From: Halorubrum aethiopicum
GTDB taxonomy: Archaea; Halobacteriota; Halobacteria; Halobacteriales; Haloferacaceae
Assembly (NCBI RefSeq): GCF_001542905.1
Contig: NZ_LOAJ01000001.1
Coordinates: 1 to 64,000, forward strand
DNA length: 64,000 nt
Direction: 5' to 3'
Both the position numbers and the translations under genes were made by a program. The notes under the pieces were generated by a model. It searched no databases and had not been told where the DNA came from. It saw only the letters and a program-made list of their open reading frames with translations. Shown piece after piece: positions 5,266 through 51,094 of this stretch (positions are counted from its first letter, which is position 1; every line of letters begins with the position of its first letter).

Positions 5266-7098
5266 TCAGATCAGCCCGAGCGCCGAGAGGATCCGGTTGC
5301 CGAACACCATCGCCACCAGCCCGAAGAGCATGACCAGCCCGGAGGAGACCGTGATCGTCCGGACGGCCGCGTGCCGGTCGCCGATCGGGAGCCGGCTCAC
5401 GACCGCCTCGGCGACCATCCGCAGGATCCGGCCGCCGTCGAGCGGGAACGCCGGCAGGCAGTTGAACAGCGCGAGCTGGATGTTGATCCAGCCGGTCCAG
5501 AAGAGCAGGTTCGCGAACAGGAACGCGCCGCCGCCGAGGAACGCGAGCCCGCCCTCGAGGACGTAGAAGTTGGTGATCCCGCCGGCGAAGCCGGCGAAGT
5601 TGAAGGGGAGCCCGAAGAGGCTGCCGAGCGGGAGGATCAGCGTGACGAAGACGAGCCCGAGCGCGGAGTCCGCGAGCCCGCCGATCGGGACCCCGTCGAG
5701 CGCCCCCTCGCCGCCGTCGCCGCCGAGCAGTTCGAGGTACGCGCCCGCGGGGTACTCGGAGACGCCGACGTCGTCGAGCGCGAGCCCGCTCGTGCCGGGG
5801 AAGACGCTCACGCCGATGAACCCGCCCTCGCGGTTGGGGTGGGCGTCGAGCTCGACGTCGTAGGCGACGCGCTCGTCTGCGGCGGTGTACGCGATCACCT
5901 CGACGGTCGCTCCGGGCTCGCGCCGTTGAAGCGTCGACGCGAGTTCCGCGTCGTCGCGGATCCGGTCGCCGTCGATCTCCACGATCGTGAGCGGCTCGCC
6001 GACCGCCGCGCCCGCGTCGTGGATCGGGCCGTCCTCCTGGACGCCGACGACGTACGCGCCGATCGGCACCTCGGTCTCCGTGGCGTTCCCGCCGTCGGCC
6101 GTCTCGGTCGTCACGGTCGCGCGCTCGTCGTCGCCGACGGCCGCGAGGAACGCGCCCTCGGTCCGCACCGGCTCGCCGTTCACGGCGGCGACGACGATCG
6201 GGTCGTCGTCGACCGTGACGCCGAAGGGGTTGGCGCCGGCGGAGCCGATAGCCTGGAGCTCGCGTTCGACCGTGACCTCGCGCTCCCCGTCGCCGTCGTC
6301 GACGAGCAGCGAGACGTCCGCGTCGGCGTCCGCGAGCGCGGCCTCGAACTCGGCGGCGTCCGCGACCGGCTCGCCGGCGACCGCCACGATCCGGTCGCCG
6401 CGCGCGAGGTCCGCCTCGGCCGCCGGCGACCCCGGGTTCACCTCGCCGACCGCGTAGCCGGGCGCGACGCCCATCGCGCCGACGACGGGCCCGAAGAGCA
6501 GCGCGAAGACGACGACCGTGAGGACGACGTTCGCGGTGACGCCCGCGGCGAACATCCGGGCGCGCGCGCCGCGGGACGCCTCCCGAGTCGCCTCCTCGTC
6601 CGGTTCGACGAACGCGCCGACCGGGAGGATCGCGAGGAAGACGAGCCCCATCGAGTCGATCTCGATGTCTTCGACGCGACAAAGCAGGCCGTGGGCCCCC
6701 TCGTGGACGACCATCGCGATCGCGAGCCCGCCGACGATCTCGGGCGCGACCGACAGCGGGAGGAACTCGTTGACGCCGGGGATGATGAGGAAGTTCTGCG
6801 GCTGCTGGATCGCGGAGGGCTGCGTGGCCGACAGCGCCGACATGCCCGAAGAGACGATGAGGACGAAGGATCCGACCATCGCGACGAGCGCGCCGCCGAG
6901 CCCGAGGTTCGCGACCGCGCGCCAGAACCGCCGCGGCCCGGCCAGTCGCTCGAGGAACATCCGCCCGCGACGGGTGTGGAGGGTCGTGAGCGGGCCGGAG
7001 ACCCGCACGGAGTCCGGGAGGATCCCCCGGTTCCGGAGCCACGTCATGGCCGCCGTGTACGCGAGGATCCCCGTCAGGACCCACAGCACCGTGTTCAT
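5266..7098 (-). CDS. Site-2 protease-type M50 metalloprotease with PDZ domains
   Basis: A 610-residue integral membrane protease. The zinc-binding HEGAH motif (H132, E133, H136) lies in a membrane helix. The second metal ligand motif (PLDGGR, Asp near 554) is in a C-terminal helix. Between them are two PDZ-like regions, recognisable as GDRIVAVAGEPV and GEPLTIVEIDGDRI. This is the layout for regulated intramembrane proteolysis, cutting membrane-bound regulators or signal-peptide remnants. It has its own promoter region; the gene upstream on the other strand is a small membrane protein divergently transcribed. Confidence 0.92.
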   Translation of the reverse strand: MNTVLWVLTGILAYTAAMTWLRNRGILPDSVRVSGPLTTLHTRRGRMFLERLAGPRRFWRAVANLGLGGALVAMVGSFVLIVSSGMSALSATQPSAIQQPQNFLIIPGVNEFLPLSVAPEIVGGLAIAMVVHEGAHGLLCRVEDIEIDSMGLVFLAILPVGAFVEPDEEATREASRGARARMFAAGVTANVVLTVVVFALLFGPVVGAMGVAPGYAVGEVNPGSPAAEADLARGDRIVAVAGEPVADAAEFEAALADADADVSLLVDDGDGEREVTVERELQAIGSAGANPFGVTVDDDPIVVAAVNGEPVRTEGAFLAAVGDDERATVTTETADGGNATETEVPIGAYVVGVQEDGPIHDAGAAVGEPLTIVEIDGDRIRDDAELASTLQRREPGATVEVIAYTAADERVAYDVELDAHPNREGGFIGVSVFPGTSGLALDDVGVSEYPAGAYLELLGGDGGEGALDGVPIGGLADSALGLVFVTLILPLGSLFGLPFNFAGFAGGITNFYVLEGGLAFLGGGAFLFANLLFWTGWINIQLALFNCLPAFPLDGGRILRMVAEAVVSRLPIGDRHAAVRTITVSSGLVMLFGLVAMVFGNRILSALGLI

Positions 7099-41354: not shown

Positions 41355-41408
41355 GATCCGACCCCCGAAACCGACACGCATTAGCGCCCGCCGCGAGGAG
41401 ACGCGGGC

Positions 41409-42629
41409 ATGACCGATCCCACAGCCGAGGACCTCCTCGAGCGCGTCCGCGACGGCGACGTGCGGCTCCACGAACTGGACGACCACGTCGACGCCGGGAC
41501 GGCCGCGACCGTTCGCCGCCGGCTGGTCGCCGACGAGTCCGGCGCGGACCTCGACGCGGTCGGCGAGTACGCCTTCGACGCGGCCGCCGCCGACCCCAAC
41601 ATCGACAACATGATCGGCGGGCTCGAAGTCCCGCTCGGCGTCGCGGGGCCGGTGCCCGTCGACGGCGGCGCGTTCGACGGCGACCGCTACCTCCCGATGG
41701 CGACCACCGAGGGGGCCCTGGTCGCCTCGGTCAACCGCGGCTGCTCCGTCATCGACGCGGCGGGCGGCGCGACCGCCCGCGTCACGAAGAGCTCGATGAC
41801 CCGCGCGCCCGTCTTCCGCGTGGCCGACGTGGCCGAGGCGGAGGCGCTCGTCGAGTGGGTCCGCGACAACGAGCCGGCCCTGCGGGAGGCCGCCGAGTCG
41901 ACGACGAGCCACGGCGAACTCCGCGGCGTCACCCCGTACGTCGTCGGCAACAACGTCTACCTCCGGTTCCGCTTCGACACGAAGGACGCGATGGGGATGA
42001 ACATGGTCACCATCGCGACTGGCGAGGCCTGCGACGTCGTCGAGGCGGAGACCGACGCCGAGCTGGTCGCGCTCTCGGGGAACCTCTGTTCGGACAAGAA
42101 ACCCGCCGCGGTCAACGCGGTCGAGGGGCGCGGTCGGTCGGTGACCGCCGACGTCGAGGTCCCCCGCGAGGTCGTCGAGGACCGGCTCCACACGACGCCG
42201 GCGGCGATAGCCGAGATCAACACGCGCAAGAACCACGTCGGCTCCGCGAAGGCGGGCTCGCTCGGCTTCAACGCCCACGTCGCCAACGCGGTCGCGGCGA
42301 TGTTCCTCGCGACCGGCCAGGACGCGGCGCAGGTCGTCGAGGGGTCGAACGCGATCACGACCGCGGAGGCGACCGCCGACGGCGACCTCTACGTCTCCGT
42401 GTCGATCGCGAGCCTCGAGGTCGGCACGGTCGGCGGCGGGACGAAGCTCCCGACGCAGGCGGCCGGTCTCGAGGTCCTGGGAGTTCGCGGCGGCGGCGAC
42501 CCCGCCGGCAGCAACGCCGACGCGCTCGCGGAGGCGATCGCGGTGGGCGCGCTGGCGGGCGAGCTCTCGCTTCTCGCCGCGCTGGGCTCGCGACACCTCG
42601 CGTCGGCGCACGCGGATCTGGGCCGATAG
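41409..42629 (+). CDS. hmgA: HMG-CoA reductase (class I)
   Basis: A 406-residue 3-hydroxy-3-methylglutaryl-CoA reductase. It makes mevalonate, the committed step to archaeal isoprenoid lipids. Visible parts: ENVIGG-type DNMIGGLEVPLGVAGP, catalytic Glu in LPMATTEGALVAS, DAMGMNMVTIATG, catalytic Lys in CSDKKPAAVN, GGGTKLPTQ and catalytic His in LGSRHLASAH. Length and motifs match the NADPH-dependent haloarchaeal enzyme, the target of mevinolin. Confidence 0.97.
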   Translation: MTDPTAEDLLERVRDGDVRLHELDDHVDAGTAATVRRRLVADESGADLDAVGEYAFDAAAADPNIDNMIGGLEVPLGVAGPVPVDGGAFDGDRYLPMATTEGALVASVNRGCSVIDAAGGATARVTKSSMTRAPVFRVADVAEAEALVEWVRDNEPALREAAESTTSHGELRGVTPYVVGNNVYLRFRFDTKDAMGMNMVTIATGEACDVVEAETDAELVALSGNLCSDKKPAAVNAVEGRGRSVTADVEVPREVVEDRLHTTPAAIAEINTRKNHVGSAKAGSLGFNAHVANAVAAMFLATGQDAAQVVEGSNAITTAEATADGDLYVSVSIASLEVGTVGGGTKLPTQAAGLEVLGVRGGGDPAGSNADALAEAIAVGALAGELSLLAALGSRHLASAHADLGR

Positions 42630-42683
42630 ACGGGGAGACCGTTCATACGCGGGGACGCGGCTCCGACGACTCGAACCGGCGGT

Positions 42684-43481
42684 TCAGTCCTCGCCCTCGA
42701 TCGCCCGCGCCGCCGCCAGCACGTCCTCGTGGAGGCCGCCGTTGGAGGCGACGAGCCCGACGGAGTCGTGCCGCCAGCGGTTCCCCTCGAGGTCCGTCAC
42801 CCGCCCGCCGGCCTGCCGGATCATGAACACGCCCGCGACGGAGTCCCAGGGGTTCGCTCGGAGGTTCGAGATCGTTCCCTCCAGCCCGCCGGCGGCGACC
42901 GTCGGGAGCACGACCTGTGCCGCGCCGAGCCGGCGCATGTCGCCGAATCGGGTCACGATCGCCTCGCAGGCGTTGGCGTACTCCGCTCTGGCGTCGTGAC
43001 CCCACCACAGCGTCGGGTCGACGGTTCCCCGTCGGGGATCGGTCGCGTCGCTGACGGAGAGCCGCTCGCCGTTGCGGTACGCGCCGTCGGCGTCGGCGGT
43101 GTAGACGTCCTCGAGCGCGGGACAGACCGTCGCGGCCGCGACCGGCTCGCCGTCGACGACGGCCGCCACCGCGGTCCCCCACACGCGGATCCCGCGGACG
43201 AAGTTGTGCGTGCCGTCGATCGGGTCGATCACCCACGCCGGCCCCTCGTCGGGCACGCGCTTGCGGGCGTCCTCCTCCTCGCCGACGACGGCGTCGTCCG
43301 GGAACGACTCGCGGATCGTCTCGATGACGGCGCGCTGGGCGGCCCGGTCGGCCTCGGTCACCACGTCGTCCTCGCCTTTCGCCTCCACGTCGATGTCGGT
43401 CCGGAAGGCGTCGCTCGCGACGCGGGCACCCGCTCGCGCGGCCCGCTCGGCGAGGGCCGCGCGCTCGTCTACGTCGGTCAT
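42684..43481 (-). CDS. Inositol monophosphatase family phosphatase
   Basis: A 265-residue Li-sensitive type phosphatase. Metal motifs: VGEEEDA (Glu), WVIDPIDGTHNF (DPIDGT) and NPWDSVAGVFMIRQAGGRVTD. In archaea this family removes phosphate from inositol-1-phosphate or fructose-1,6-bisphosphate; residue reading does not separate these. Convergent with hmgA. Confidence 0.93.
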   Translation of the reverse strand: MTDVDERAALAERAARAGARVASDAFRTDIDVEAKGEDDVVTEADRAAQRAVIETIRESFPDDAVVGEEEDARKRVPDEGPAWVIDPIDGTHNFVRGIRVWGTAVAAVVDGEPVAAATVCPALEDVYTADADGAYRNGERLSVSDATDPRRGTVDPTLWWGHDARAEYANACEAIVTRFGDMRRLGAAQVVLPTVAAGGLEGTISNLRANPWDSVAGVFMIRQAGGRVTDLEGNRWRHDSVGLVASNGGLHEDVLAAARAIEGED

Positions 43482-43568
43482 GGCCCCGGATCCGGCTCCC
43501 GGACGCGTATAAACGTCGATCCGGCGACGAAGGGGGATCGCGACAGTATTAACTCAGTTCCGAATCCG

Positions 43569-43578
43569 AGTATACTTA
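43569..43578 (+). promoter_or_regulatory. TATA box of small gene at 43605
   Basis: AGTATACTTA lies about 30 bp before ATG 43605, the right spacing for a short-leader transcript. Confidence 0.5.
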
Positions 43579-43604
43579 AGTACGTCGAGGGTGGATGGGC
43601 GCGT

Positions 43605-43862
43605 ATGAGACCCGAGGAAGCGGTTCGCCAGCTCGAGTACGCCATCGACGCCTCGCTCGACGAGATCGGCCAGCGCGCCGCCGCCGGCTACCGGCCGACG
43701 TTCGAGCGGGTCGCCGAGCGCGCCGACGGCGCGGCCGTCTACACGCTGGCGGGCGAACTCGCCGACGAGGTCGTCTGCGGCGACTGTCCGACCCCCGCCG
43801 AGGCGAACGAGGCGGCGGAGCGCGTGCTCGCCGACCGAGCCTACACCGACGGCGGGAAGTAG
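43605..43862 (+). CDS. Small conserved haloarchaeal protein
   Basis: An 85-residue acidic protein, MRPEEAVRQLEYAIDASLDE, with a central TLAGELADEVVCGDCPTPAEAN holding the only two Cys (CGDC). It is mainly helical with a central beta hairpin. The good TATA box and typical haloarchaeal codon use support it. No family name known to me. Confidence 0.72.
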   Translation: MRPEEAVRQLEYAIDASLDEIGQRAAAGYRPTFERVAERADGAAVYTLAGELADEVVCGDCPTPAEANEAAERVLADRAYTDGGK

Positions 43863-43982
43863 ACCGCGGATCGGTCCGGACCCCGCCGCGAGCCTCCCTT
43901 CTCGAAGTTCCGACCCTTTCCCGGAGCCCGCGATCCGTTCTCCGACCGCCGTCCGACCGCGTCCGGCCTCGTCCCTCGTCGA

Positions 43983-45680
43983 TCACCGCGGCGCGCGCCG
44001 CACCAGGAACAGCGTGGCGAGCACGATGGCGACGAGCACCGCCAGCCCGGCGAAATCCGCGGGGTCGAACGCGGCCGGCTCCGTCCGGTTCGCCGACCCC
44101 GGATCGGTCGAGGGTGCCGCGTCGTCGGCGCTCACGCCCCCGTCGGATACCGATTCCTCGCCGTCGGACCCCGTCCCGCGGGTGGGGTCCGGATCGGTCC
44201 CGTCGGATCGCGTCCCGGCCCCGTCGTCCGTCCCCGTCCCGTCGTCCGGACCAGTTCCGTCGTCCGATCCCTCCGGGTCCGGCTCGGGTTCCCGCACGGC
44301 GAGCGAGGCGACGGTGGCGGAGCCGTCCAGCCGGTCGCCGGCGACGACGAGGTCGTATTCTCCGGGGTCGTCGAGTCGCACGGTCGCGGTCCGGGTGACC
44401 GTCTCGCCCGGCGCGACGTCCACGGAGAGGGGGCCGTCCGCGAGCGCGTCGACTGCGTTCCCGTCAGCGTCGACGGCCCTGACCGCGACCGGCTCGTCGC
44501 TGGTGGGGGCCGGACCGCGGTTCGCGAGCGTCACCTCGAGGGTCGTCGCCTCGCCGGGCGCGACGCGCTCGGTCGGGACCGCGGCGTCGACAGCGGAGAG
44601 CGCGGGGCGGTGGGCCGCGAGCGCGAACGCGGAGAAGCCGTCGGACTCGATCGCGAGCCGGACCGTCCCGTCGGTCTCGCCGATCACCCGCGTCTCGGTC
44701 GCCTCCCAGCCGTCGCCGGTCTCGTGGTAGGCCGCGAGGTCCGCGGGCTCGACGCCGGCTCGTCGGAGCAGATCGCGCTCCACGACCACCTCCGCGGTCG
44801 CCGCCTCGATCGGCTGGTCGGGCTCCGCGAAGGCGACCGCGTAGTAGCCGAGCGGGTCGACGCCCGACCGGTCCACGGGGTCGATCTCCTCCGGGAGCTC
44901 CTCGCTTCCCTCGATCGAGAACTCCACATCGCCCGAGCGGTTCCGCACGAACGACAGCCGGTCGAGCCGGATCGCGGGATCGCCCATCTCGAGTCCCTCC
45001 AGGTCGACCTCGGTCTCTTCCTCCACTGCGACCGAGTACACCTCGACCTGGCGGGCGGTGGGATCCGGCGAGTCGACGAGGACCGTGGGGTCCGAGGGAT
45101 CGCCGTCTTCGTCATCGTCGTCTCCATCGTCCCCGTCTCCATCGTCCCCGTCTCCATCACTCCCGCCGCCCTCCTGCGTGATCGCCTCGGGCTCGGCGGG
45201 GCGCGCGTGAACCGAGATCTCGTCGATGATCCGGTCGCCGGGCATCAGGTCGGCGACGCGGGTGTCGACCCTGACGCCGACCGGGACGGTCTCGTCCTCG
45301 GACGTCAGGAGTGCCGGATCCTCGCCGCTTTCCGCCGGCTGGCCCTCGATCACGAAGGTCACCGCCTGCGAGTCGTGTTCGATCCAGACCTCGGCGGGCT
45401 CGCTCCCGTTGTAGAGGACGTAGAAGAGGTCGTCCTCGACCGTGAGCGCGTCGACGTTGACGCCGCCAGCGTCGAGGCGGGGATTGTCCTCGGTCACGTC
45501 GATGACGAGTTCGCCGTTCTCGTCGAGGTAGGTGTATGGGTTGTCGCCGGGTTGGAGGGCGACCTCGTCGTTGAGGCGGTCGGCGGGGCCGTCGACGAAG
45601 GCGGCGCCGGTGGAGAAAATTAGGGCGGTAGCTCCGAGGACGACGAGGACCAGCAGTGTCGTCGAACCGCGGGCACGCAT
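43983..45680 (-). CDS. Exported DUF1102/PGF-pre-PGF surface protein
   Basis: A 565-residue surface protein. It has a signal peptide (TTLLVLVVLGATALIFSTGAAF), a DUF1102-like region (to about 170), an Asp/Gly-rich linker, and a PGF-pre-PGF-type domain (VEFSIEGSEELPEEID to DGFSAFALAAHRP, about 240-360). A CARDB-like Ig domain follows (EATTLEVTLANRGPAP, 375-450), then a Ser/Thr/Asp/Gly stalk and a C-terminal helix with basic end. It is probably membrane-anchored outside the cell, with the stalk a likely site of O-glycosylation. Last of three minus-strand surface genes. Confidence 0.8.
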   Translation of the reverse strand: MRARGSTTLLVLVVLGATALIFSTGAAFVDGPADRLNDEVALQPGDNPYTYLDENGELVIDVTEDNPRLDAGGVNVDALTVEDDLFYVLYNGSEPAEVWIEHDSQAVTFVIEGQPAESGEDPALLTSEDETVPVGVRVDTRVADLMPGDRIIDEISVHARPAEPEAITQEGGGSDGDGDDGDGDDGDDDDEDGDPSDPTVLVDSPDPTARQVEVYSVAVEEETEVDLEGLEMGDPAIRLDRLSFVRNRSGDVEFSIEGSEELPEEIDPVDRSGVDPLGYYAVAFAEPDQPIEAATAEVVVERDLLRRAGVEPADLAAYHETGDGWEATETRVIGETDGTVRLAIESDGFSAFALAAHRPALSAVDAAVPTERVAPGEATTLEVTLANRGPAPTSDEPVAVRAVDADGNAVDALADGPLSVDVAPGETVTRTATVRLDDPGEYDLVVAGDRLDGSATVASLAVREPEPDPEGSDDGTGPDDGTGTDDGAGTRSDGTDPDPTRGTGSDGEESVSDGGVSADDAAPSTDPGSANRTEPAAFDPADFAGLAVLVAIVLATLFLVRRAPR

Positions 45681-45681
45681 C

Positions 45682-45699
45682 GTAGGAACATCAACCTAC
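45682..45699. promoter_or_regulatory. GTAGG-N8-CCTAC palindrome at surface gene start
   Basis: A 5-bp-arm inverted repeat directly upstream of ATG 45680. CCTACAGAT from its right arm recurs at about 45830. It might bind a regulator; equally it may be chance. Confidence 0.3.
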
Positions 45700-45854
45700 A
45701 GATACCAAAGTAATCGGTCCTCGATGGGGCATCGATCGATGGTCTCAGATAGTGAAAAGGACCTGTAACCTGTAAGACGGACCCGGTACTCCTCGTTCGA
45801 TATCCCATGTCATAGCAGAACACATTCCTACAGATCCGAGTCAATAAAAATCGA

Positions 45855-46487
45855 TTAGGAAACAGCCCAAGCCTCAACTTCTAGGGACGCAGTAAAGAAG
45901 TCACCGACATCGCCGTTAAGCGCGTTGACGACGAAAGAGACTCCTAACGCGTCACCGGGATCGAGTTCTAGCGACGGTGCTACCGTCTGACTTGGGTACC
46001 GCACTTCGGTCAGTTTTCCATTCGAATTCTGAATCTCGAACAGGAATCTCGTGTCACCGGCATCCGAGCTACTACTGGTCGGATCTAAGGTGAAGGTGAC
46101 ACTCATCGTGCTATTTGTTTGGTTCGCGATCAGGAAAGCGGATTTAAAGTCATCGGTATCGGTACCGATCGGATCATCCGTCGTTTCCACCGTGAACCAA
46201 TCCGGCGTTATATTGGGATACGTGTGGGTAAGGTAACCGAACTGGTAGAGAGAGTTGACGTTTATTCCCGGGTCAGTGATAGAGATCGATAGCTGACCGT
46301 TGTCACCTTCATCGACACCGGCAACCTCGTCGTTCGGGATCAGAGCAACGAGGCCTTTCGAGTCGTTGACAACCGACATATCTACCTCCCGATTCACTTG
46401 AGCCGTGGTAAACGCTCCCGTTCCGAGAGTCGCGCTACCACCCGCAACGGTCGCACTCAATCCGAGGAGCAGTTTTCTTCGTTTCAT
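45855..46487 (-). CDS. DUF1102 protein, possible TasA-like subunit
   Basis: A 210-residue exported beta-rich protein. N-terminus KRRKLLLGLSATVAGGSATLGTGAF has a twin-arginine-like signal; the mature part starts near TTAQVNREVDMSVVNDSKG, a pattern shared with the next gene. No Cys. DUF1102 proteins share the SipW-type opening and strand pattern of camelysin/TasA fibre proteins, but the relationship here is inferred. GC content is markedly below the window average. Confidence 0.78.
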   Translation of the reverse strand: MKRRKLLLGLSATVAGGSATLGTGAFTTAQVNREVDMSVVNDSKGLVALIPNDEVAGVDEGDNGQLSISITDPGINVNSLYQFGYLTHTYPNITPDWFTVETTDDPIGTDTDDFKSAFLIANQTNSTMSVTFTLDPTSSSSDAGDTRFLFEIQNSNGKLTEVRYPSQTVAPSLELDPGDALGVSFVVNALNGDVGDFFTASLEVEAWAVS

Positions 46488-46703
46488 TGCTCGTTCTAGG
46501 TGGCTCTTCGATCATCGTGGTGAGTCTCCCCGTACGCTCCGATACCCATCGTGGTCACTCTTCGTGGCACCGCTAACTTACGTCTGGCCGCGGGCATGAG
46601 TCGTTTCATCGTTTTCTTATCTCGTGGGTGGTAACGTATCAAAAGGGGAGTAGAGCCGTCGACAGCGTAGTCGTAGGCTGTCGAACACCTCTCTGTTATT
46701 CGA
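46488..46703. other. A/T-richer intergenic region between surface genes
   Basis: About 215 bp with two CATCGTGGT sequences 32 bp apart (near 46515 and 46547), each followed by a CACTC/GAGTC-like hexamer. It should contain the promoter of the DUF1102 gene at 45855. No clear TATA box or coding gene was recognised. Confidence 0.4.
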
Positions 46704-47501
46704 TTATTCCTCGCCAGGGTCTGCAGCCTCGTTGGCACTGATCGTCAACTCTTCAGCCAGCGAACGACCGTCCGGCGTATCACCGTCGCGCGTGTCCACT
46801 TGGATGGAGACGTACACCGATGCCCCCGGAGGAATTGCCTCATCCGGATCGTTTGCATTGTTGAAGCTCAGGGCTTCCATGGCGCCATCCTGACCAGTAG
46901 TCGGATCGCTGAGATCGAGTTCGCTGGTGTTGGTGGCCGTCGCTCCGTCTAGCTGGCTCGAGCCGTCAGTGCTAGTTGATCCATCATCACCGCTGATAGC
47001 AGTCGCTTTGCCTTGGAGGTACACCGTCGCACCAGCGTTTGCCGATGCGGTATTCATACCGATCTCGAGATCGAGCGTCTGTCCGCTCATGTTGCGAACA
47101 ACGAACGCTGACTGATCTGTATCCGAGGATTCCACGTACGGCTCCCCGTCCCCTGCCGCTGCCGGAGTACTATCGTCATCATAGAGACTTTCAAAGGAGA
47201 TCCCGTCGCCCAACGCGTCGTCATTCATCGCGCCGATCTGGTATCTCGCGTTATCATTAACACCAGATCCGGTCGCCTCGTCGTCGAAGTCGATGTATAG
47301 CTCGCCGTTTTCCTGACCGATCCGATCTCCAACGCCACGGGCTCCACCAGCCTCGAGCTGGAGATATGCGTTCGAGTCGTTTTGGACCGTAACGTCGGCA
47401 CTACGTGGCACGACCGCACTCGTGAACGCACCCGTCCCTGTTGCAGCTGCCCCGCCGGCAGCGAGCGATCCCACACCGATCACGAACTTGCGCCGTTCCA
47501 T
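46704..47501 (-). CDS. DUF1102-like exported protein
   Basis: A 265-residue exported beta-rich protein. Signal region ERRKFVIGVGSLAAGGAAATGTGAFTSA is twin-arginine-like and close to that of the next gene. The mature start PRSADVTVQNDSNAYLQLEAGGARGV follows the DUF1102 pattern. A Ser/Thr/Asp-rich segment near 175-200 could be glycosylated. ATG 47501 is used; the frame has another ATG four codons upstream. First gene of the minus-strand surface cluster. Confidence 0.8.
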   Translation of the reverse strand: MERRKFVIGVGSLAAGGAAATGTGAFTSAVVPRSADVTVQNDSNAYLQLEAGGARGVGDRIGQENGELYIDFDDEATGSGVNDNARYQIGAMNDDALGDGISFESLYDDDSTPAAAGDGEPYVESSDTDQSAFVVRNMSGQTLDLEIGMNTASANAGATVYLQGKATAISGDDGSTSTDGSSQLDGATATNTSELDLSDPTTGQDGAMEALSFNNANDPDEAIPPGASVYVSIQVDTRDGDTPDGRSLAEELTISANEAADPGEE

Positions 47502-47957
47502 ATCGTATCTCACCTGCGTTCGGGCACCCCCGCAACCCGGACGTCCGGGCCGAGAGCGCTCGGATAGGGCATGTGGAGGAAGGTACTTCGTTATGAGATC
47601 CTCGACATGTACGCGGGTCGGACTCGATGGACCTCCGGGGCCTGCTCGATGCGCTTCGAGCGCGGCTCACGGCCACATCGATCCATGCTCGTGAATACCA
47701 CACTACCCACACAGCAGGGTTCAGGCAGTCGTATAGTGGGCATTGAGTAGTCCATGAGGGATCGAAAGCGATCCGTTCCGCGATTCAGCCGTTCCTCTCG
47801 CGAGTCCAGAGCGCGGGCTTCAATCATCAGAAAACGGAAACTTACAAGTTAATTATCCAACCTCTTTATGCCACTTCCTCACACACGTTCCAAGCGAGAT
47901 CCGCCGGTTCGGGACTACGGGGGTTTCCGGCCGGCAGGACACCACGGAGGGCCCCAG
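47502..47957. promoter_or_regulatory. Divergent control region of the surface-protein locus
   Basis: About 455 bp between the DUF1102-like gene and the DUF7344 regulator, much of it lower in GC. On the plus strand TTAATTATCC (47848-47857) is the best TATA box, giving a start near 47880 and a leader of about 75 nt to ATG 47958. An earlier ATG at 47868 is possible. No tRNA or inverted repeat of note was seen. Confidence 0.45.
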
Positions 47958-48545
47958 ATGACATTCGCGATCACCACGGCGAGCGAGTCGAACGGAAACG
48001 GGGGTGAACTGTCGCAAGACGAGATATTCGAAGTCCTCTCGAACCGCCGGCGGCGGTTCGTCATCCACGCGCTCAAACGCAGGGAGGACCCGATCGAGGT
48101 GTCCAACCTGTCCACGCACGTCACCGCGTGGGAACTCGACGTCGATCCGGAGGAGGTCGAGTACGAGGACCGCCGCAACGTGTACAGCACGCTCCAGCGC
48201 ACCCACCTGCCGAAACTGGAGGAGAAGGACATCGTGGACCTCAACGAGGAGGAGAACGTGGTCGAGCCGACGCCCGCGCTCGAGGACCTCGACATCTACG
48301 TCGAAGCCTTGGGAAGCAAGGAGATCCCGTGGAGCCTCTACTACGTCGGGCTCGCGGGCGTCGCCGCCTCGCTCCTGCTCGCGGTCGCGACCGGCGCGGC
48401 GGGGTTCGCCGCGTTCGAACCGCTCGACGTGGGCGTCTTCACCGCCACCGCCTTCGGCGTCTCGTCGGTCGTCCACCACGTCGTCGGCCGCCGCGCCCGC
48501 CTCGGCAACACGGAGAAGCCGCCCGAACTCCGAAAGATCGAGTAA
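47958..48545 (+). CDS. DUF7344 winged-helix regulator with membrane anchor
   Basis: A 195-residue protein. The N-terminal haloarchaeal wHTH domain (DUF7344-type) reads LSQDEIFEVLSNRRRRFVIH and DRRNVYSTLQRTHLPKLEEKDIVD; two C-terminal membrane helices follow (about 125-170). Such proteins are thought to couple membrane signals to transcription. ATG 47958 is chosen since the domain starts soon after; ATG 47868 would add 30 unlike residues. It is the first gene of a pair with the exported protein at 48568. Confidence 0.8.
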   Translation: MTFAITTASESNGNGGELSQDEIFEVLSNRRRRFVIHALKRREDPIEVSNLSTHVTAWELDVDPEEVEYEDRRNVYSTLQRTHLPKLEEKDIVDLNEEENVVEPTPALEDLDIYVEALGSKEIPWSLYYVGLAGVAASLLLAVATGAAGFAAFEPLDVGVFTATAFGVSSVVHHVVGRRARLGNTEKPPELRKIE

Positions 48546-48567
48546 ATCCGAACGAGTCGACTCAGAG

Positions 48568-49029
48568 ATGACCACCACCCGAACGCCGCCGGCCCGCGTG
48601 AGCGCGCTCCGTACCCTGAGCATCGTGCTCGCGTTCACCGCGGCGGTCGGACTCGTCTTCGGCACCGCGGGCTTCTCCGCGATGGAGGCGGATCGCGGGA
48701 TCGAGGCCAACGTGGTCGACGACGAGGACGCGTACCTCGGCTACGAGATGACCATCGAGACCGAAACCGTCAACAACTCCACTACCGCCACCGCCGAGGC
48801 GGAGTACCACAACCAGTTCAGCGGCGAACTGACGCTCGACGTTACGGTCGAGGTCGACGGACAGGATCGTGAGAACGCGAGCGTCACGCTCACGCAGGGA
48901 GAGGCAGAACGGATCGAGGTCTCGGAGTCCTGTTCGTCCGGCGAGACGGTCCATTTCACGTTCGTGGCGACCGGAAACGGCTCGGGAGTCAACGTCTCGC
49001 TGGAACGCAGCCACTCCGTGACCTGTTAG
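48568..49029 (+). CDS. Exported DUF1102-like protein
   Basis: A 153-residue protein with a signal-type helix (TLSIVLAFTAAVGLVFGTAGF) and a mature part EADRGIEANVVDDEDAYLGYEM, the same opening pattern as the two DUF1102 proteins. The rest is beta-rich with many Asn-x-Ser/Thr sites (NNST, NASV, NGSG, NVSL). One Cys pair (SCSSG and final TC) may form a disulphide. It lies 22 bp after the regulator gene and is probably co-transcribed with it. Confidence 0.77.
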   Translation: MTTTRTPPARVSALRTLSIVLAFTAAVGLVFGTAGFSAMEADRGIEANVVDDEDAYLGYEMTIETETVNNSTTATAEAEYHNQFSGELTLDVTVEVDGQDRENASVTLTQGEAERIEVSESCSSGETVHFTFVATGNGSGVNVSLERSHSVTC

Positions 49030-49113
49030 TACTGAACGATTCCGTGAACTCGACCTCCACAAACGGCACGAACACGAGTTCCGCCGACACGGTCGCGTCG
49101 TGAGATCCGGTCG

Positions 49114-50364
49114 TCAGAGTTCCACCCGCTCGCCCAACTCCGGCGCGCTCGCCTCGACCCCCTCCGTCCGGAGGTCCTCCGCGAACGCCTCACACCGGTC
49201 GCCGTGGTTCACGAGCACCCGCGCGTCGCGATAGTCGTCCAGAAACGACTCCAGTCCCTCCCGGTCCGCGTGCGCGGAGAAGTCGAAAGAATCGACGCGC
49301 GCGCTCACGGGACGCACCTGCCCGTTCAACTCCAGCCGTCCGTGCTCCTGTAGCTCCCGGCCGGGCGTCCCCTCGACCTGGTACCCCGTCAGGGTCACCG
49401 CGTTCGTCGGGTTCGTTCGGATCCTCGGGAGGTACGAGTGAATCGGCCCACCGGCGAGCATCCCGCTCGTGGTGATCACGAGGGCGTTGTCGGCGGCGAT
49501 CCGCTCGCGCTGGCCGTCGCGTCCCGTCACGAACCGCGCCGCCCCCGTCGCGCGCCGGAGCGCCTCGGCGTCGCGCAGGAACTCGGGGTGCCGGCGGAGC
49601 AGTCGCGTCACCTCGATCCCCATCCCGTCGACGTAGGGGTACAGGTCATTGGCGGCGGCGACGAGCAGCAGCTCCTGGGTCCGACCGATCGCGAACGCGG
49701 GCGCGACGACGGTGCCGCCCTCCCAGATCGTCGTCCGCACGCGCTCCGCCCAGCGCGCCTCGACCGCGGCGCGGTCCTCGTGGGTCACGTCCGCGTAGGT
49801 CGACTCGCAGATCACGGCGTCGGCGTCGGGCCGCGCCGTCGTCCCCGACACCAGTCGCTGGTCGTCGGTGTGGAAGTCGCCGGTGTACAGGAGACGGGTG
49901 TCGCCGTCGTCCACGAGCACGTGCGCGGAGCCGGGGATGTGGCCCGCGTTGAGAAACGTCAGTTCGTATCCGCCGCCGTCGACCCCGCCCGCGACCGCGA
50001 ACGGCTCCCCGTAGCCGTGGCGCACCTCCGCCTCGCCGAGGCGGGCGACGTGTTCCTCGGAGAAGGGACACAGGGGACTGTTCCCGTGGAGCTTCAGCGT
50101 GTCGCGCGCGAGGACCCGCGCGAGGTCGGCGGTCGGCGGCGTCCAGTGGATCGGCGGCCGCCGGTCGCCTTTCAGAAGCGCCGGCACCGCGCCGACGTGG
50201 TCGAGGTGGCCGTGCGAGACCACGACCGCGTCGGGTTCGGGGTCGCGGATCGGGTACTGCGGCGGGTCGGCCGTCAGCAGGCCGTAGTCGAGAAGCAGCG
50301 AGTCGTCGACGAGGACCGCGCTCCGGCCGACCTCGCGGGCCCCGCCGAGGAACTCGACGTCCAT
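49114..50364 (-). CDS. Beta-CASP metallo-beta-lactamase RNase
   Basis: A 416-residue beta-CASP nuclease. Metallo-beta-lactamase motif HGHLDHVG (about 53-60), later LNAGHIPGSAHVLV and LLYTGDFHTDD, and the beta-CASP part with CESTYAD, ITTSGMLAGGPIHSYL, SFDFSAHADREGL and LVNHGD. Members are RNA exo- or endonucleases in RNA decay or 3' end processing. The N-terminal KH domains of aCPSF1 are absent, so it is the shorter aCPSF2/aRNase J-like group. ATG 50364 begins MDVEFLGGAREVGRS. Confidence 0.93.
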   Translation of the reverse strand: MDVEFLGGAREVGRSAVLVDDSLLLDYGLLTADPPQYPIRDPEPDAVVVSHGHLDHVGAVPALLKGDRRPPIHWTPPTADLARVLARDTLKLHGNSPLCPFSEEHVARLGEAEVRHGYGEPFAVAGGVDGGGYELTFLNAGHIPGSAHVLVDDGDTRLLYTGDFHTDDQRLVSGTTARPDADAVICESTYADVTHEDRAAVEARWAERVRTTIWEGGTVVAPAFAIGRTQELLLVAAANDLYPYVDGMGIEVTRLLRRHPEFLRDAEALRRATGAARFVTGRDGQRERIAADNALVITTSGMLAGGPIHSYLPRIRTNPTNAVTLTGYQVEGTPGRELQEHGRLELNGQVRPVSARVDSFDFSAHADREGLESFLDDYRDARVLVNHGDRCEAFAEDLRTEGVEASAPELGERVEL

Positions 50365-50387
50365 GGCGTCCGTACCGCGCGGCCGGG

Positions 50388-51038
50388 TTAGTGTCCGTCG
50401 GTATCGCCGCCGCGACTCGGGACGGAACGCCGGCGGACCACCGGCAGGGGACCGACGAGCCACACCCACGCCGCGAGCATGAACGCGCCCGGCAACTCGG
50501 GCAGCGCGAGCCCCGTCACCGGCCAGAGCCCCGCGAGGAACGTCGCCCAGACGGCGACGTGGACCGGGACGAACGCGAGCGCGACCCGGCCGGTCCGGGC
50601 GTCTCGCCGCGCCAGCCCGTCGATCCCGAAGACGACCGTGACGAGCAGGTAGAACCCGACCGCCGCGGGCGCGTGAAGCGCTCTCGTGAGATCGAAGACG
50701 CCGACGCCGGCCATCGCGACCATCGCGAGCGCGAAGACGACCGCCCGAAGTCGGCCCGCGGCGCTCGCCGCGCTCTCCCGCGCGCGGACCCACAGCCCGG
50801 CCGCGTAGCCGAGCCCCGCGAGACCGCCGAGGACCAACCCGCCGTTGAACGCCGGGGCGCTCCGGTCGCGGACGCCCAGGTCGGAGAGCGCGTCCGCCGT
50901 CCACGAGAACGTCGGGTCGAGGCGTATCGCGAGGGCGATCCCGCCCAGCGCGGCGAGCGTCGCGACCGCGCCGAGGACGCGGGCGGGGATCGGAGACGGC
51001 TCCTCGATCGATTCTCCCACGCTTCCCTCGTCGTCCAT
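50388..51038 (-). CDS. DUF998 membrane protein
   Basis: A 216-residue protein with six membrane helices. LDPTFSWTADALSDLGVRDR after the first helix is the conserved DUF998 segment. Function unknown. It lies between GINS and the nuclease in the same direction with gaps of 56 and 23 bp, perhaps co-transcribed with the nuclease. Confidence 0.84.
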   Translation of the reverse strand: MDDEGSVGESIEEPSPIPARVLGAVATLAALGGIALAIRLDPTFSWTADALSDLGVRDRSAPAFNGGLVLGGLAGLGYAAGLWVRARESAASAAGRLRAVVFALAMVAMAGVGVFDLTRALHAPAAVGFYLLVTVVFGIDGLARRDARTGRVALAFVPVHVAVWATFLAGLWPVTGLALPELPGAFMLAAWVWLVGPLPVVRRRSVPSRGGDTDGH

Positions 51039-51094
51039 GGTCGAACGCCGTCGAGTAGCGGCTTAAAAGACCGGCGTGAAAAGCGGGCGGAGAC

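Follow-up and report, generated by a model that had tools for sequence, protein, structure and literature searches.

What do the five genes between positions 43,983 and 49,029 of contig 1 of Halorubrum aethiopicum encode, and do they work together? They lie in the first 64 kb of that contig, the stretch analysed here as the window, in a 3.33-Mb haloarchaeal genome. A sequence-only reading had proposed a fibre system of the TasA/camelysin type, in which three small exported proteins with a shared opening, all labelled DUF1102, stand with a large anchored protein and a control protein. That reading was largely right in kind; our corrections are that the system already has a name, Tat-fimbriae (tafi, after the twin-arginine translocation (Tat) pathway), that one of the three small proteins is cap-like, and that the DUF1102 label does not fit them. 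We computed homology to tafi, synteny, the folds of one subunit and of the cap-like protein, the leader, the upstream arrays and the replacement of subunits. On this basis we put at about 0.8 the probability that the locus is a divergent tafi-type system with Tat-exported strand-exchanging subunits, a cap, an anchor, DUF7344 control and an exchangeable subunit cassette.

Gene set and related clusters

The founding account of Tat-fimbriae is Galeva et al. 2025 (doi 10.1016/j.isci.2025.111793), represented here through a citing paper and the NCBIfam models. These thin, Tat-dependent haloarchaeal appendages have TafA as their core component (PMC12687288). In a canonical cluster of a genome of the same genus (L093 in G014), matches to TafE, TafA and TafC score 231.7, 209.5 and 461.3 bits, all over the cut-offs, and are joined by a TafF-like protein (299 bits, under the cut-off of 420), a DUF7344 protein and a SipW-like peptidase; the TafC carries a LamG domain. 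The window locus holds the same tafi gene set of A/E subunits, a C protein, an anchor and a DUF7344 protein. On the reverse strand lie W_big (43983..45680), a large anchored protein of 565 residues, and two Tat-signal fimbrial subunits, the distal, TafE/TafA-like W_s1 (45855..46487, 210 residues) and the leader-proximal W_s2 (46704..47501, 265 residues). The forward strand carries W_reg (47958..48545), a DUF7344 winged-helix protein, and W_s3 (48568..49029), a short TafC-like protein of 153 residues. All five genes stand where the sequence-only reading had placed them, although it gave no coordinates for the DUF7344 gene. Because this anatomy matches that of the canonical cluster, we regard the locus as a divergent paralog of the same kind of system and, judging from sequence, as a previously unlabelled Tat-fimbria cluster. 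Going by the lettering, one might guess that the DUF7344 protein is TafB and the peptidase TafD. The window locus differs from canonical tafi in Taf scores that are all under the curated cut-offs, in having no peptidase in cis, in a short TafC-like protein with a Sec-like signal and no LamG domain, and in an anchor with additional weak PGF-pre-PGF and CARDB regions.

Elsewhere in this genome, L012:7465-16711 (within C1:1132000-1150000) is a second locus built of the same kinds of part, to which are added a rhomboid-like protein, a signal peptidase resembling SipW and one more membrane protein. The peptidase scores 56.5 bits against the archaeal signal peptidase model, over its cut-off, and 30.3 bits against SipW, below it; no other match in this genome reaches E ≤ 1e-30, and a peptidase of this kind is present in 51 of 52 genomes of the genus. 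The search for a SipW-type peptidase elsewhere, proposed with the sequence-only reading, thus led to a SipW-like match in the paralogous locus. The stretch after the large protein there (L012:13056-16711) runs through the rhomboid-like protein, the peptidase, which has a long C-terminal extension, and a membrane protein of 451 residues. Beside this locus, at L012:5926-6887, are two small open reading frames, perhaps a toxin–antitoxin pair, of which the 142-residue one has a weak VapB-antitoxin match. On one contig of a Halovenus metagenome-assembled genome (L022, 201-7081), window-type genes, a paralog-type regulator and a SipW-like peptidase are adjacent.

Subunits, cap-like protein and candidate anchor

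W_s1 and W_s2 align at 31% over 169 residues (E 2e-9). Both open with the twin-arginine-like motifs that had been recognized earlier, MKRRKLLLG and MERRKFVIG, which suggest export through the Tat pathway, and both also match TafA of NCBIfam below its cut-off (W_s2 at 25.9 bits). The Pfam model for DUF1102 (PF06510) matches neither of them nor W_s3 even at E 1, and we dropped it as their common label; only W_big matches it, marginally. Among Pfam and NCBIfam models, those for TasA, camelysin and SipW-type signals are not listed for the subunits at E up to 1.

A profile built from an alignment of 39 subunits of both locus types finds one solved structure, chain C of 9p0a, deposited as 'Pilin', with E 3.1e-32 over 186 profile positions, and the structure is thus a sequence homologue of the subunit family; a literature search for it gave no publication, and there was no plasmid match. 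In single-protein phmmer searches W_s1 and W_s2 reach the same chain with E 3.7e-6 and 1.2e-6, through their N-terminal 70–93 residues only. AlphaFold gives W_s1 an all-beta structure at pLDDT 75, in which the signal peptide and loop 94–110 are poorly predicted. The model's best match in the PDB is the AbpA bundling pili of Pyrobaculum calidifontis (7ueg_A; E 6.7e-5, probability 1.00, TM-scores 0.42/0.48), and the Sulfolobus thread 7pnb_A matches with E 2.1e-3, probability 1.00 and TM-scores 0.45/0.50. Both are donor-strand archaeal filaments (PMC9674648, PMC9715654), and AbpA belongs to an archaeal system related to TasA (PMC9674648), but their sequence identity to W_s1 is low, at 9–11%. The threads (Saci_0406/0405) also differ in being Sec-exported and isopeptide-bonded.

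Just after the signal, the 39-subunit alignment contains an invariant R33 and an invariant D42, in a segment that lies outside any strand of the W_s1 monomer model; this placement would be compatible with a donor strand, without proving it. The description of W_s1 and W_s2 as exported fibre subunits, probably of donor-strand type, holds up; W_s2 is probably the major subunit. The earlier TasA/camelysin-type proposal may apply to these two Tat subunits, and does not extend to W_s3, whose predicted structure is Ig-like.

W_s3 has a Sec-like signal without the arginine pair, a donor-strand-like N-terminus and cysteines at 122 and 153, and matches its paralog with E 8e-10. Profile comparison of its family with the subunit family gives a probability of 98.9, through the N-terminal 53 columns only, and its match to 9p0a is likewise confined to the N-terminal segment. 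The opening said to be common to all three small proteins is therefore above chance, but in W_s3 the likeness ends after about 55 residues, where the Ig-like domain begins. The model (pLDDT 76) has a confident seven-stranded domain at residues 57–152, and a fold search with this domain returned assorted Ig-like and related beta-sandwich domains, from which the designation of the predicted fold as Ig-like is our own. W_s3 was accordingly rejected as a TasA-type subunit. TapA of Bacillus, whose Ig fold is complete and disulfide-bonded, gives its N-terminus to TasA (PMC10151520), and in the thread Saci_0405 is a putative cap that lacks an acceptor site (PMC9715654); by analogy, W_s3 may be a TapA-type cap or nucleator rather than a subunit.

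W_big combines a Sec-like signal without the arginine pair, a DUF1102/TafF-like N-terminal domain, weak PGF-pre-PGF- and CARDB-like regions, an acidic linker and a C-terminal hydrophobic segment that, from its sequence, probably spans the membrane. The domains attributed to it earlier stand in part: DUF1102 is marginal, at 21.0 bits for the whole protein and 24.4 bits in the genome search against a cut-off of 22.2, and a hydrophobic C-terminal segment, the probable anchor, is present, whereas PGF-pre-PGF and CARDB both fall under their cut-offs. It is 31% identical over 593 residues to its paralog P_big, no solved structure was found for it by sequence, and its subunit-like domain aligns with the subunit family in hhalign with probability 98.6 over 179 columns.

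The fibre would then form as follows. W_s2 and W_s1 would fold in the cytoplasm and leave through the Tat pathway. They would be cleaved close to the GTGAF motif, with the paralogous locus probably supplying the SipW-like peptidase in trans, and each subunit would pass its conserved N-terminal strand (R33...D42) into the next. W_s3, with a donor-type strand and an apparently complete Ig-like domain, may serve the filament as a cap or nucleator, the part that TapA plays for TasA. W_big, with its subunit-like domain and C-terminal anchor, may hold the base; it would then lie at the cell, and W_s3 at an end of the fibre. The TasA/TapA/SipW system of Bacillus subtilis (PMC9674648, PMC10151520) offers a parallel, with subunits, an accessory Ig-fold protein with an N-terminal donor-type segment, and a SipW-like peptidase in the genome; TasA is cleaved by SipW and has Phe at P2' (PMC10269814), and the window subunits have a conserved AF motif at the putative cleavage site. 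The window locus differs in its Tat rather than Sec signals and its membrane-anchored subunit-like protein, and no TasA sequence match was found.

Candidate regulator, leader and upstream arrays

The sequence-only reading had rightly seen a membrane-linked DUF7344 helix-turn-helix protein in the middle of the locus: W_reg matches PF24035 with E 2.1e-24 and 86.1 bits, past the cut-off of 27.8, and has a C-terminal hydrophobic stretch. It is 41% identical to its paralog P_reg, and would act as a divergent regulator. A further divergent DUF7344-like gene pair lies elsewhere in this genome (G000:C1:2204060-2205799), with no Taf match reported nearby.

Ahead of the subunit genes, on the same strand, a leader of 98 nucleotides (47499..47596) runs from TCATAAC to the ATG, including the start codon of W_s2. 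It is non-coding DNA with 90% mean column identity across 24 loci, contains a ribosome-binding-like GGTGAG and likely forms a bulged 14-bp hairpin at about 47523-47560. Leaders of the window type are present in 26 of 51 genomes of the genus, and in the paralogous locus both Tat operons are preceded by a related but different leader (82% identity over 22). Both types can be folded into a bulged hairpin with the apex GGA(C/U)GUCC. For the paralog type, changes on both sides of the stem were counted in 11 cells, a number that none of 500 shuffles equalled; in the window type 98% of pairs are kept and covariation is not clearly above that of shuffles (47 of 500 as high), and the case for an RNA structure therefore rests mostly on the paralog-type leader. 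As sequence kinship alone can beat shuffles without any structure, we regard this RNA fold as likely without taking it as proven. Rfam does not match the leader, and gives one weak match elsewhere in the locus, below the gathering score. Models were built of the window-type (R1) and paralog-type (R2) leaders, with the three sites of this genome among the training sequences. In this genome R1 matches the window site alone and R2 the two paralogous sites alone. Matches beyond the training set directly precede TafA-profile matches (G014:C1:617201, G014:C1:1774916, G083:C3:335912, G065:C1:109593 and G028:C8:545814), and R1 matches adjoin window-type regulator matches. One locus has the leader in duplicate (L051:4200-4320 and 6064-6186), with a Tat subunit after each copy.

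Upstream of TCATAAC, at 47597..47670 on the reverse strand, lies an array of CGAG repeats with a spacing of about 22 bp, or about two helical turns, which we regard as a candidate operator. In window-type loci CGAG occurs at −8 (24/24), −30 (20/24), −52 (11/24) and −72 (10/24); paralog-type sites instead have TTCTG at −10 (25/26), TTCAG at −31 (21/26) and −63 (14/26), and CTGAA at −83 (13/26). Each of the two regulator types is accompanied by a different array, and the most economical reading of these sequences is that every DUF7344 protein binds the array of its own locus type. The DUF7344 protein would thus control the operon through the phased CGAG repeats, and the probably structured leader between promoter and W_s2 may stabilize or tune the mRNA.

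Probable subunit exchange and rival readings

Synteny of the window locus extends to 20 other genomes, giving 21 loci, and the paralogous locus was likewise read in 20 genomes; as the genomes were chosen for regulator matches, these counts are not a survey. The named relatives that match the locus best are mostly Halorubrum species. In the 20 other genomes with the window-type locus, a beta-CASP gene lies on one side and, in all but one fetched stretch, an inositol-monophosphatase-family gene (window 42684-43481) on the other. The core comprises one to three Tat subunits, the C protein and the divergent regulator, which keeps the same position in 21/21 loci; the large protein is present in 9 of the 21, including this genome. 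Median pairwise identities in the window type fall from 90 for PriS, 84 for beta-CASP, 77 for the regulator and 66 for the large protein to 58 for the C protein, 45 for the proximal subunit and 39 for the distal one, and in the paralog type from 82 for the peptidase and 80 for the regulator to 56 for the large protein, 44 for the C protein, and 44 and 36 for the subunits.

Against the H. rubrum locus L068, window DNA is 87–90% identical over 41364-45735 and, outside a break of 61 bases, 91% identical over 47998-51054; the leader with the first codons (47470-47663) stands at 80%, yet there is no DNA alignment at all over 45736-47469, which holds both subunits. The subunit proteins are 39 and 41% identical, compared with 92% for the C protein and 84–96% for flanking proteins. 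The converse is seen in L055, L068 and L049, in which both subunits are 87–98% identical while regulators are at 76–84% and beta-CASP proteins at 86–88%. In the window, W_s1 and W_s2 have a GC content of 52% and 59%, against 70.5% for the whole stretch. Because dissimilar subunits sit in similar flanks and the converse also occurs, replacement of the Tat subunit pair as a unit, by transfer between lineages, explains these sequences best, and the pair would be an exchangeable cassette, differing among otherwise very similar loci. A wider proposal is more tentative: Halorubrum might swap subunit pairs between species, serotype-like, by homologous recombination in conserved flanks (upstream the operator array, the leader and the codons of the signal peptide; downstream either the anchor gene or the flank), with two DUF7344 regulators, their own arrays and structured leader RNAs choosing the fibre. 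In Halorubrum salipaludis (L024, 1-11467), about nine Taf-like subunit open reading frames and two window-type regulators occur within 11 kb, a local expansion.

Several results weigh against a divergent tafi system. W_s1 and W_s2 score 46.3 and 35.2 bits against TafE, with a cut-off of 155, and W_s3 36.8 bits against TafC, with a cut-off of 410; W_big is unmatched by the NCBIfam TafF model. The fold evidence comes from the monomer model of one of the two Tat subunits, its TM-scores are modest (0.42–0.50), TasA is absent among the listed structural matches, and the window locus contains no peptidase gene. The unmet cut-offs, together with single-protein 9p0a matches that stay within the N-terminal residues, would suit exported proteins that form no filament, monomeric or associated with the S-layer and sharing with tafi only the signal and the N-terminal segment. 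We consider this improbable, given that the family profile matches a solved pilin over 186 profile positions, that filament subunits head the fold matches, that the donor-strand segment has invariant residues outside the strands of the monomer model and that the cap-like gene is syntenic in 21/21 loci.

A tafi-type system is also compatible with a less independent role, in which the window subunits would be alternative parts of the paralogous cluster's fibre, used under other conditions, rather than a separate fibre. The missing peptidase and rhomboid genes, the single strong SipW-like match in this genome and the Halovenus contig all speak for such a satellite, whereas the locus has its own regulator, cap, subunits, anchor and leader type and a different upstream array, and we think it rather unlikely. 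Similarly doubtful is the notion that the DUF7344 protein does not regulate the operon and that some other factor, or none at all, binds the repeats and leader. Several related DUF7344 genes occur in most genomes, and binding to the array is something we infer, but the gene is among the best conserved in each locus type, in window-type loci it is divergent from the subunit genes, and two regulator types accompany two different arrays.

With a tafi-type system as the preferred reading, the locus extends a family that was named only in 2025: Halorubrum bears at least two further paralogous lineages beyond the reach of the curated models. A TapA-like cap and an anchor would be relevant to how Tat-fimbria fibres start and end. 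Through the leader, the paralog-specific arrays and the apparent exchange of subunit pairs, both the regulation of archaeal fibres and their surface variation become open to direct tests. Of these findings, the apparent subunit exchange behind a strongly conserved control region, which resembles the change of surface antigens in microbes, most deserves to be followed.

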